Source of the DNA: Flavihumibacter fluminis
GTDB taxonomy: Bacteria; Bacteroidota; Bacteroidia; Chitinophagales; Chitinophagaceae
NCBI RefSeq assembly: GCF_021491375.1
Contig: NZ_JAKEVY010000004.1
Location: forward strand, 1-64,000
Length of the DNA: 64,000 nt
Reading direction: 5' to 3'
Shown: in pieces, positions 5,234-45,151 of the stretch
How positions within the stretch are numbered: position 1 is the stretch's first letter
How the letters are laid out: each line of letters begins with the position of its first letter
Program-made: the position numbers and the translations under genes
Notes under the pieces: generated by a model
Databases searched by the model: none
The model's input: only the letters and a program-made list of their open reading frames with translations
What the model was told of the DNA's origin: nothing

Positions 5234-5318
5234 TATTATTGGTGGCGCTTGTAATGTTTTGGTTTTTCAGGCATCCAATAGACAGCAACTATAACTTTCT
5301 AAACCAACAACACCAAAT

Positions 5319-43200: not shown

Positions 43201-43348
43201 GGGTCTGCCTCCCCTGGGCATTATTGGGATACCCATGACCGTTACCGGCACCTCAGAAAATCCGGTTGTACGTGTCCGCAGAGGAAAAGACTCCGAAGAA
43301 CTGGAGGAAACAGTAGACGAAGCAGTTACCCCTCCTGAACAGGAATAA
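40220..43348 (+). CDS. AsmA-like inner-membrane protein with large periplasmic domain
   Basis: A 1042-residue protein with one N-terminal transmembrane helix (about 8-30) and a long periplasmic body of beta-strand repeats. The start matches the AsmA family (LPLLFADRIEQSIKTWINQTVES, FPRLTLTLKDFSLTG). The C-terminal region (VEVKGLKLFNAVSK, INNNLITIERTRMRIFGF, MTVTGTSENPVVRVRRG) is the AsmA C-terminal domain. Related proteins help move phospholipids or assemble the outer membrane; that role here is inference. The end overlaps oxyR's 3' end by 23 bp, convergent. A second AsmA-like gene lies at the right edge. Confidence 0.87.
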   Translation: MSVRIRRVAKIIGILLGSILALLYLLPLLFADRIEQSIKTWINQTVESQVDFKKVQIGFFSHFPRLTLTLKDFSLTGAKPFEKDTLMAGESLSFGINLASLFQDDLEVDQFFIEGANVKVLVDKDGKANYAIYKAKNKTDTAAVKKSGGTSLQIQGIYFSDCSLYYEDASIPLLIESNEFSYEGRGMLDQEEFDLTSSLHAKSMSVEYNGTRYLDQRSVDADLITGVNTYSLALRFQKNDILINQLPVDFSGTLFFVRDGYDIDLSLVSGSTDFKNIFSVLPPGYDSWFKDTRITGKSKVTLDLKGAYRAGTGEAPDMHISCLINEGSIQHKNAPKPLRNVQLKADLYLPRLEPDSMLVKIDCLYFTLDEDSSQIKGQVQGFDNPIIQADINSRIELQLLDQALGLSDVDIAGKLAIRANIDGQLKRGQNPSNFRPDTILLSVPSYQLNARLEQGKIKFQQLPLAVAEISASIESSLTGSNWEDIHLKIQEFKAKPGSGQMEMTAELDGLFPSNMKISGKATLPMKEINQVFPLEGYRYEGDLHMQIDAAGELNTENNAFPVTAAQLQWKAGRIQTPFSASSLDNIFIESSIESNTGNSKDLRISIPTAKFQFNNQPFELTGKLENLQDIHYQIAANGTLNLDSLYQLLAIDDFRVGGNLEMNLDLGGRVSDIEQKRYRNLRQKGYLQAEQLQLRSNAYPAPFVFPSLRLEFNQEHAWLKNTTLQYKRNQLNLEGDVQQIVGYLMNQSELKGILSIRGKHLQLDDFTAFEATTVSDSTSTGKEGSGVLLFPDGINFILKAAIDTVQFGESSLHQLAGQLQIQKGVAKLSQTTARIAGARVFLEADYQPENPYSAKFSIKTRADSFDVKKAYEEISLFREMAPSAAYTKGLISMDYFLSGRINEQMDPVNPSLKGKGKLVLENVEVKGLKLFNAVSKASGKDSINNPQLKAVVINSSINNNLITIERTRMRIFGFRPRVEGQVSLDGQLNLRFRLGLPPLGIIGIPMTVTGTSENPVVRVRRGKDSEELEETVDEAVTPPEQE

Positions 43349-44270
43349 CATTTCGGGGTTTATTCTTCCGGATTTTTTCAGGCAAACTGGACAGTACACA
43401 TTCCTTCAGCGCCTCGAGTAATTTCTCCTTCACAAAGGTTTTGCTGGCAATCAGGCTAACCTCCCGCATGGGTGCAGGTGTTTTAAAGTGTCGTAACATT
43501 CTTTGCTGGGAAGCAGTCAGGTCATAGGTGGCCAACTCTGGTAAAATGGTAATACCACGATTGGTTTCCACCATTTTCTTAAGTGTTTCCAGGCTCCCGG
43601 CCTCGTATTCGAATAAGAGCAGGTCTTTGTGTGCCTGCTGCAATTCACAAAGGTTCAGTATCTGATCCCGAAAACAATGCCCTTCTTCCAGCAACCAGAG
43701 ATCATGTACATCAATGTCCTTAGCCAGCATGTAGGTTTTTTTATACGCCGCATGCTTGCGCGATACATAGGCCATCATCTCTTCGTAAAAAAGAGGATAT
43801 TCTTCTATTCCTTTATGATTCAGTGGAGTTACCACCAGTGCCATATCCAATCGTCCTTTAGCAACTGCTTCAACCAGATTATCGGTTGTCATCTCCTTCA
43901 CCTTTAATTGCAATTCCGGATATTTCTCCAGAAAGGAGGGCAGAAATATGGGCAGCAGGTAGGGAGCCAGCGTAGGGATGATCCCAAGGCGCAACTCTCC
44001 ATGTATCAGTCCCTGCTTTTCCTTAATCACATCTTCCAGCAGTTTTACTTCCCGCATCACCCGCCTGGCATGCTCCAGCACCAACTCACCCAAAGGGGTC
44101 GGTATTACCGGTTGCCTGCTGCGATCAAAGATTTTCAACCCCATTTCCTCTTCCATTTTCTGTATCTGCATACTGAGAGTTGGCTGGGTCACATAACAAT
44201 GCGCAGCTGCCGTAGCAAAATGCCGGTGCTCATCTACCGCTAGTATATATTCAAGCTGAGTAAGTGTCAT
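43326..44270 (-). CDS. oxyR: Hydrogen peroxide sensor OxyR (LysR family)
   Basis: OxyR activates peroxide defence genes when its sensing cysteine forms a disulfide. The 314-residue protein has the LysR winged helix-turn-helix (1-60, AAAHCYVTQPTLSMQIQKME) and a substrate-binding-type sensor domain. The two redox cysteines fall at exactly the E. coli positions, Cys 199 in LLEEGHCFRDQ and Cys 208 in LNLCEL. A perfect OxyR recognition motif lies 4 bp upstream of its start codon, which suggests autoregulation. No catalase or ahpC gene is in the window. Confidence 0.94.
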   Translation of the reverse strand: MTLTQLEYILAVDEHRHFATAAAHCYVTQPTLSMQIQKMEEEMGLKIFDRSRQPVIPTPLGELVLEHARRVMREVKLLEDVIKEKQGLIHGELRLGIIPTLAPYLLPIFLPSFLEKYPELQLKVKEMTTDNLVEAVAKGRLDMALVVTPLNHKGIEEYPLFYEEMMAYVSRKHAAYKKTYMLAKDIDVHDLWLLEEGHCFRDQILNLCELQQAHKDLLLFEYEAGSLETLKKMVETNRGITILPELATYDLTASQQRMLRHFKTPAPMREVSLIASKTFVKEKLLEALKECVLSSLPEKIRKNKPRNVIPVQEG

Positions 44271-44273
44271 CTG

Positions 44274-44288
44274 ATAGATAGAATCTAT
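44274..44288. promoter_or_regulatory. OxyR binding motif between oxyR and a divergent transcript
   Basis: ATAGATAGAATCTAT matches every defined position of the OxyR motif ATAGntnnnanCTAT. Its centre is about 64 bp upstream of the predicted divergent start (near 44345), the usual LysR recognition-site place, and just downstream of the predicted oxyR start, where binding would repress. The second motif of a full OxyR site (expected from 44296) is not recognisable. Confidence 0.72.
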
Positions 44289-44295
44289 GTATCTA

Positions 44296-44326
44296 TAAAA
44301 TTAATCAATCTTTTCACTATTTGAAA
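44296..44326 (-). promoter_or_regulatory. Probable oxyR promoter
   Basis: Minus-strand TTTC, 19 bp, TAATTTTA: one mismatch in each box of TTTG-N19-TAnnTTTG, with ideal spacing. The start would be near 44292. Confidence 0.45.
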
Positions 44327-44340
44327 AAAGGATAAATTTG
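44311..44340 (+). promoter_or_regulatory. Promoter divergent from oxyR
   Basis: TTTT (44311-44314), 18 bp, TAAATTTG (44333-44340), a full -7 consensus. It would start a transcript near 44345 toward the NlpE-like gene. Confidence 0.6.
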
Positions 44341-44344
44341 AATC

Positions 44345-44427
44345 ATAACAATCATAAAATTTTTGCTTAAGTCACTGGTTGGTAGTAAGCACACTAAAGC
44401 CACTCGTCCATACGGGTGGCTTTTTTC
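44345..44427 (+). ncRNA. Candidate small RNA or leader attenuator divergent from oxyR
   Basis: Between the promoter above and a strong terminator lies an approximately 82-nt stretch without any ATG. It can fold into two hairpins: a 6-bp stem TGCTTA/TAAGCA (44364-44369 with 44386-44391), then the terminator stem (44396-44407 with 44412-44423, one G-T pair) followed by a run of T residues. This is the usual build of a trans-acting small RNA. The place and the OxyR site recall oxyS, divergent from oxyR in E. coli, but there is no claim of sequence homology. It could instead be an attenuator for the gene 26 nt further on. Confidence 0.5.
44396..44427 (+). terminator. Intrinsic terminator of the oxyR-divergent transcript
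   Basis: A 12-bp stem AAAGCCACTCGT/ACGGGTGGCTTT with loop CCAT and a T-run to 44426. It lies upstream of the start at 44453, so it cannot be the end of that gene. Confidence 0.85.
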
Positions 44428-44452
44428 ATTATATTGGGTCAAATTTCCTCCA

Positions 44453-45151
44453 ATGCAACGAACCCACTTTATGGCCCTGCTTGCCCTGGGCTGGCTGGCC
44501 TGTAATGATGGTATTGAAGTAACAACAGATATAACAGTTCCGGAAACCCGAACCGCCCTTTCACTGAATGAACTGGCTTCCTACTATGCAGATACATTAC
44601 CCTGCGCCAGTTGTGAAGGGATCTTCACCGAATTGGCTATACTGGATGACAGCACCTATTTTCTATCCGAATCATATATCGGAGAACAAAGCCAGCCCCT
44701 GGGTTCTATCGGCAGATTCAGCCGGGAAGGCGATGTTCTTACCCTGGGGTCTGCTGATGACAGCGCCCGCAGATTCAAGATCATGGAAGACCGTGTTGTG
44801 CAATTGGACAAAGATGGCTCTGAGATGATAACCGGACTGGATTACAGTCTTGAACAAACAACCCAACCAGTCAACCTGATCACCCGCCCTTTTTTGACGA
44901 ATGGATTCCTGAAAATTGAAAACAACCAGGGGAATTTTCAACCCTGCGGAATTGCACAAAGCTGGGAACTTATGAATGATGCAGGAATTAAAGAAGCCAA
45001 TCGGTTTTTTGCAAAACAGGCAGCCAAACTTGCTGAAGGAGTATATGTTCGTGCTTCCATTGAATTGCAGCCGGCAAACGATAGTACAGGCTTAGCTTTC
45101 CATGTTAAACTGAATACCGTTTCGGAACAGCTTGCAACTGGCTGCCAGTAA
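44453..45151 (+). CDS. NlpE N-terminal-domain-like lipoprotein
   Basis: A 232-residue lipoprotein from ATG 44453: lipobox LGWLAC (Cys about 17); the upstream extension of the frame runs through the terminator and is rejected. Residues about 40-130 resemble the NlpE/copper-resistance N-terminal domain, with the CxxC-bearing segment YADTLPCASCEGIFTEL and the strand order TYFLSESYIGE. NlpE of E. coli signals envelope and surface stress to Cpx; the role here is unknown. The C-terminal half is unfamiliar. Its position after the OxyR-linked promoter and terminator suggests oxidative-stress control by read-through, as inference. Confidence 0.75.
   Translation: MQRTHFMALLALGWLACNDGIEVTTDITVPETRTALSLNELASYYADTLPCASCEGIFTELAILDDSTYFLSESYIGEQSQPLGSIGRFSREGDVLTLGSADDSARRFKIMEDRVVQLDKDGSEMITGLDYSLEQTTQPVNLITRPFLTNGFLKIENNQGNFQPCGIAQSWELMNDAGIKEANRFFAKQAAKLAEGVYVRASIELQPANDSTGLAFHVKLNTVSEQLATGCQ

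Follow-up and report, generated by a model that had tools for sequence, protein, structure and literature searches.

The gap between oxyR and an NlpE-like lipoprotein gene in the window (the whole 64 kb stretch of DNA that was analysed, part of the 4.71 Mb genome of Flavihumibacter fluminis, G000) probably carries an OxyR-activated, OxyS-like small RNA, which would act in trans in the peroxide response and be transcribed from a divergent OxyR control region. In the proposed mechanism, OxyR would occupy a site whose centre is at position -64 of a plus-strand promoter of the sigma-A type, oxidation of OxyR by peroxide would activate this promoter, and the same binding would cover the oxyR start and should thereby repress oxyR. 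The plus-strand promoter is predicted to give rise to a short RNA of about 44345-44426, which would end at an intrinsic terminator ahead of the NlpE-like gene (Table 1). Most likely, this RNA would regulate other transcripts in trans under peroxide stress, much as OxyS does in enterobacteria; that it acts by base pairing, possibly via 44370-44392, is the least certain part of the proposal. Comparison of related sequences shows the operator, the -7 box and its fixed spacing, the terminator, the co-occurrence of box and terminator and a similar geometry at katG.

Table 1. Features of the oxyR-NlpE region in window coordinates; in the operator frame the first A of ATAG is base 0.
Feature	Position	Strand	Remarks
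oxyR	43326..44270	-	314 aa LysR-type regulator; Cys199 and Cys208 present
OxyR-type site ATAG-N7-CTAT	44274..44288	.	3 bp ahead of the oxyR start codon; centre at -64 of the predicted divergent start
Second operator part, ATAAAATTAATCAAT type	44295..44310	.	conserved; overlaps the possible oxyR -7 box
Possible oxyR -7 box TAATTTTA	44296..44303	-	one mismatch to TAnnTTTG
Divergent -7 box TAAATTTG	44333..44340	+	perfect TAnnTTTG; last G is base 66 of the operator frame
Predicted small RNA, ~80 nt	44345..44426	+	predicted start to end of T-run
Weak 5' hairpin	44364..44391	+	structure not conserved; partners change in relatives
23 nt AGTCACTGGTTGGTAGTAAGCAC	44370..44392	+	identical in L002, L003, L005 and L006
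Intrinsic terminator	44396..44426	+	12-pair stem 44396-44423, T-run to 44426
Possible NlpE promoter element TATATTGGG	44430..44438	+	TATMTTGRG in 5/5 NlpE loci
NlpE-like lipoprotein gene	44453..45151	+	Pfam NlpE, 9.5e-20

OxyR operator and divergent promoter

The closest solved relative of the regulator encoded in the window is the OxyR chain 3ho7_A (3.5e-46), and its top NCBIfam model is likewise OxyR, with 225 bits, which is under the equivalog cut-off of 329. The two cysteines listed in Table 1 correspond to the redox cysteines by E. coli OxyR numbering. The protein is 99% identical to OxyR of Flavihumibacter cheonanensis (L256); the Flavihumibacter group as used here (genus group g1) includes MAGs filed under other names. 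Beyond the divergent side of oxyR, an LD-carboxypeptidase gene (Pfam Peptidase_S66) is found on the minus strand.

A preliminary description of this DNA had placed an OxyR-type site directly upstream of oxyR and, with the site centred at about -64, a full -7 box facing away from it; ATAG-N7-CTAT is present at 44274-44288 and TAAATTTG at 44333-44340, so that both elements stand. The operator was modelled over 40 bases (bases 0-39), and the model scored above 12 in 108 of 165 oxyR loci compared with 1 of 165 mononucleotide-shuffled sequences, having been trained on the same 165 loci that it scored. These loci are part of the relatives matched, and matches beyond them exist. The 57 loci with a score of 12 or less do not enter the counts of box positions and terminators; some of them (L007, L013, L024, L026) have a site that can be seen but is displaced. 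The operator consensus over the loci is ATAGaTtttaTCTATnnaantATAAAAtTAATcaATTtga, and its first base lies no more than about 25 bases from the oxyR start in the scored loci, with L066 (98 bases) as the exception. On this comparison, the operator at oxyR is judged to be a genuine conserved element. Within the window, ATAG-N7-CTAT occurs at two places (44274 and 5278), the second of which (5278-5292) lies in a gap before an ORF that by eye resembles an ABC-transporter ATPase.

It had also been suggested that the oxyR promoter lies next to the site, fitting autorepression. This is plausible, and the overlap of the operator with the oxyR start would fit autorepression, but the box TAATTTTA is imperfect. 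A minus-strand TAnnTTT[AG] is found in the second operator half in 60 of the 108 loci, a perfect TAnnTTTG in 14, and because this oxyR -7-like box sits there, the conservation of the second half may in part reflect the oxyR promoter beside OxyR binding. The overlap with the oxyR start and the position of the -7-like box inside the second half-site would equally suit a plus-strand promoter that only tunes oxyR, by divergent promoter competition or polymerase traffic, with the RNA as a by-product. This is considered improbable, as such tuning needs neither a terminator nor conservation of the RNA body within the genus.

In Flavobacterium the -7 box is placed at -12 to -5 of the start, according to the available part of PMC9723704; the predicted start at 44345 and the site centre at -64 follow from setting the box at these positions. 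The sequence at 44333-44340 has the TAnnTTTG -7 box that serves as the criterion for Bacteroidota sigma-A promoters. A TTTG at about -33 was described for Bacteroides and was not identifiable in F. johnsoniae, as far as the available part of PMC7366714 goes. The distance between operator and box recurs in relatives: of the 108 loci, 41 have a divergent TTTG whose last base is 66 and 8 have one whose last base is 65, over a TTTG background in bases 80-190 of 0.49 per position on average and 3 at most. As the operator model spans only bases 0-39, the box was not selected for and is independent of the model. When the count is restricted to the 80 loci that have neither catalase nor katG opposite oxyR, 24 have the box at 66 and 5 have it at 65, and the background in bases 80-190 averages 0.42. 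TAnnTTTG is common in the window (21 on the plus and 19 on the minus strand), as a chance arrangement of AT-rich motifs would have it, but the fixed spacing in 49 of the 108 loci and the same spacing at katG contradict it, which leaves this reading very improbable. The divergent promoter facing away from oxyR is thus judged, from the spacing across loci, to be genuine. By eye, the box carries one change in L005 and several in L006, and the RNA is kept in both.

Peroxidase genes under the same control region

In 28 of the 108 operator loci the gene opposite oxyR is a catalase or katG, and in 20 of these the box ends at 65 or 66. The genes that face the promoter in relatives include a catalase (Pfam Catalase, L019), a KatG-type gene (L082) and a Dps/ferritin-like gene (L088, family f19, with the same operator and box), and in four further families of this order (L080-L083) KatG lies opposite oxyR. 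In L104 (family f16), an ORF of about 33 aa with a hydrophobic stretch, translated by eye, follows the OxyR-type promoter in place of a peroxidase gene.

A search of the genome that holds the window found no PF00199 catalase. Its katG is located at G000:C32:361417-363573 and is preceded by the operator ATAGATTTTATCTAT (ATAG-N7-CTAT), which begins 104 bases before the ATG, and by the box TAATTTCG, which has one mismatch and, on reading the sequence, has its last base at 66; katG is likely a second OxyR target in this genome. Among the katG loci, 10 of the 14 found were examined, with an operator score above 20 in 9 of the 10 and an exact TTTG at 66 in 4. The tenth locus (L248) is from G001, a genome of the same genus: its katG has no operator and the genome gave no OxyR match at 1e-60, a pattern that would fit a joint loss of regulator and site.

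A further model (R1), which joins operator and box, was trained solely on loci whose TTTG ends at 66; of 3088 candidates, 150 were scored with it. In the genome of the window the oxyR site is its sole strong match (38.4 bits, E 5.5e-9), followed by a match of 17.0 bits; the katG site reaches 8.8 bits (E 9.0), since its second half differs. A weak R1 match at the same model positions recurs in five same-genus genomes (L203, L223, L225, L226, L228) beside a gene that in L203 resembles MreB by eye, and probably reflects no more than an AT-rich promoter.

The predicted RNA and its terminator

Terminators were counted on the plus strand with a score of at least 18 within about 260 bases of the box. 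Such a terminator is found in 18 of 29 box loci compared with 6 of 51 box-less loci among the 80 non-peroxidase loci (p 5.6e-6), and two of these six are L005 and L006, in which the RNA is kept with an altered box. The class without catalase or katG includes loci with other divergent ORFs, namely NlpE, the Dps/ferritin-like gene of L088, the short ORF of L104 and unnamed clusters; L088 and L104 are among the 11 of 29 box loci without a terminator. In the first peroxidase filing, a terminator was found in 1 of 29 loci. There, L110 had been counted as peroxidase on a spurious ORF of 57 aa and was later refiled as non-peroxidase; the genus draws, the strand test and the minus-strand counts use the filing before this move (p 4.3e-6, with a terminator in 18 of its 28 box loci). 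On the minus strand, terminators follow this trend to a lesser degree (10/28 versus 5/51, p 0.007), and box loci with a terminator on a single strand have it on the plus strand in nine cases and on the minus strand in one (sign test p 0.02). To allow for kinship, each genus was represented by a single locus per draw, which in 1000 draws gave a median p of 5.6e-4 and a 95th percentile of 0.007; 120 of the 165 loci hold only the oxyR start. Box and terminator are both present in 12 genera, with a predicted RNA length to the stem end of 61-184 nt in the 18 loci that have both.

In the window, the preliminary description had noted an ATG-free stretch with two hairpins and a T-run terminator and had proposed to look for conservation beside oxyR and to run a covariance search over relatives. 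The stretch 44345-44427 is indeed without ATG and folds at -22.7 kcal/mol (z -4.06, with 0 of 200 shuffles equally stable), and extended to 44452 it gives z -2.63 with 3 of 200 shuffles as stable. The terminator hairpin is conserved, with both sides of its loop-closing pair changed between species, and the site beside oxyR is kept as well; the first hairpin is weak, its partners vary and it is not kept. The identical 23 nt of Table 1 form a candidate pairing or binding region. A target search in four same-genus genomes with TACTACCAACCAG, the complement of part of this stretch, at one mismatch or less, gave 66 matches, 4 of which are the RNA's own locus, versus 20 for the reversed control.

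A covariance model (R2) was made from the 3' 66 bases of the RNA and searched in a sample of 394 genomes of the family that did not include those of L005 and L006. It scored 90.5 in the genome of the window, 90.5 in G004 and 70.2 in G012 (the genome of L009), and at most 41.8 elsewhere among the matches listed. With these 66 bases and 394 genomes, the RNA was thus found within the genus and not beyond it. In 313 of the 394 genomes R2 has some match with E up to 0.05, and many of the weaker ones fall on the terminator part; terminators like that of the window are common in the family. Because the covariance search finds the RNA only in the genus, what recurs across the family is the arrangement and not the sequence. 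When 15 RNAs of foreign genera were compared with the RNA of the window or of L006, the shuffle p was low for L018 and L111 and marginal for L107 and L112; the alignments of L107 and L112 fall on the terminator, and homology between genera is not claimed. Within other genera, stretches ahead of the terminator look alike between species by eye (L107/L111/L112 and L127/L131). Two species of genus g126 (L132 and L143) have very similar RNA-like stretches with a terminator beside oxyR, L143 being without an exact box.

Within the genus, the RNA is carried by 5 of the 13 genomes with an OxyR match and is absent or eroded in 8. As the main alternative to a small RNA, a leader or attenuator of the NlpE-like gene had been named, in which transcription from 44345 would be terminated or read through on a signal. 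The T-run ends 26 nt ahead of the NlpE ATG and the gene order is the same in L002, L003, L005 and L006, but RNA and NlpE also occur apart: L009 has a longer, diverged RNA with its terminator, followed by a convergent LD-carboxypeptidase gene and with no NlpE in the stretch examined, and L004, whose OxyR is 97% identical, keeps NlpE with the RNA reduced to the terminator region, its 5' part missing. Moreover, in the folds obtained nothing pairs in competition with the terminator (a statement on folds and not on a systematic antiterminator search), and TATATTGGG, conserved among NlpE loci, is a possible promoter element of the gene's own. Since RNA and NlpE occur apart, the attenuator is now disfavoured and deemed improbable, and the NlpE-like gene is probably a neighbour of the RNA unit that lies outside it.

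The OxyR promoter may also be a relic of a divergent peroxidase gene that has since gone or changed its place, and would then drive a short terminated transcript without function. KatG opposite oxyR in other families of the order, the genome's own katG that lies elsewhere with its own operator, the variation of the RNA sequence between genera and the many same-genus genomes without box and RNA would all fit this. On the other side stand the joint presence of box and terminator in a dozen genera, the similar pre-terminator stretches seen by eye within other genera, and the 23 nt that are identical between species whose NlpE proteins are merely 57-59% identical (L005 59% and L006 57% to the protein of the window, as compared with 88% for L003), and a relic is considered rather unlikely. 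An OxyS-like, OxyR-activated RNA remains the preferred reading of the gap.

Relation to OxyS and possible origin

In enterobacteria, OxyS is a peroxide-induced RNA that is divergent from oxyR and regulates in trans; its Rfam family is RF00035. The predicted RNA of the window is likewise encoded divergently from oxyR, and the proposed layout like that of oxyS is borne out by the presence of the site at oxyR in 108 of 165 loci, by the fixed box spacing in 49 of 108 and by the succession of box and terminator where no peroxidase gene is found. The OxyR motif starts at -74 of E. coli K-12 oxyS and at -71 of the predicted start in the window, and the RNA start lies 96 bases from the oxyR start codon in K-12 oxyS compared with 75 in the window. 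Both RNAs are short and end in a terminator, the one of the window being shorter than OxyS (117 nt annotated), whereas its promoter is of another type.

The OxyS covariance model has no match in the window at the gathering threshold, nor in six loci, L002 among them, at a limit of E 5, and an Rfam scan of the window returned only a tRNA. Sub-threshold Rfam matches near the locus (Qrr in L002; RcsR1 and Hrs13 in L005/L006) fall well short of the gathering scores and look like chance. A 10-mer ACTAAAGCCA and a 9-mer AAGTCACTG are common to window positions 44369-44401 and E. coli OxyS (L322). By shuffling this similarity is weak, and homology to OxyS was dropped on the shuffle p of 0.023 for the window and of 0.17 and 0.19 for the relatives L005 and L006, the values for L107 and L112 being 0.56 and 1.0. 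The RNA of the window would therefore work, if it works, like OxyS, while membership in the OxyS family is not supported by its sequence.

Small RNAs of Bacteroides and Flavobacterium were described in hosts that also use promoters with the TAnnTTTG box, and the term OxyR is absent from the main texts of these papers in a term search, as far as their available parts go (PMC7366714, PMC10994844, PMC9723704). Bacteroides is without an obvious Hfq homologue according to the available part of PMC7366714. In the full-text literature, which leaves most subscription papers outside its scope and is thus weak evidence of absence, no OxyR-linked small RNA was found for Bacteroidetes or Flavihumibacter. 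Divergent oxyR-katG pairs were described in Rhizobiales, as stated in the available part of PMC11975290. The pairs of oxyR with katG or catalase in the order of the window have the same operator and promoter geometry as the window, with the difference that they drive a protein gene and the promoter of the window is predicted to drive an RNA.

As KatG faces oxyR in four other families, this layout is probably the older one and the RNA layout derived, and the OxyS-like RNA may have an independent origin, at loci from which a divergent peroxidase gene disappeared or was relocated. A study by Krieger et al. 2022 in Mol Biol Evol (msac020) reportedly states in its title that OxyS 'evolved from a peroxidase mRNA'; this origin concerns another phylum than that of the window. 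A derivation of the window RNA from katG mRNA was considered and set aside, as the best similarity to 10 katG flanks of the genus reaches only E 0.36. It is tentatively proposed, at less than even confidence, that Bacteroidota evolved RNAs of the OxyS type independently, possibly on several occasions: a dozen genera of Chitinophagaceae may have kept the OxyR promoter of a former divergent catalase or katG after the loss or move of that gene, and this promoter would now drive lineage-specific small RNAs, in parallel to the origin proposed for enterobacterial OxyS.

The analysis also yields a model of the OxyR operator that can be used for this family. If the reading is true, Bacteroidota have an OxyR-controlled small RNA that parallels OxyS in another phylum, and related genomes, which under one conserved promoter have a divergent peroxidase gene, a short terminated unit or neither, would make the path from a peroxidase mRNA to a small RNA testable.
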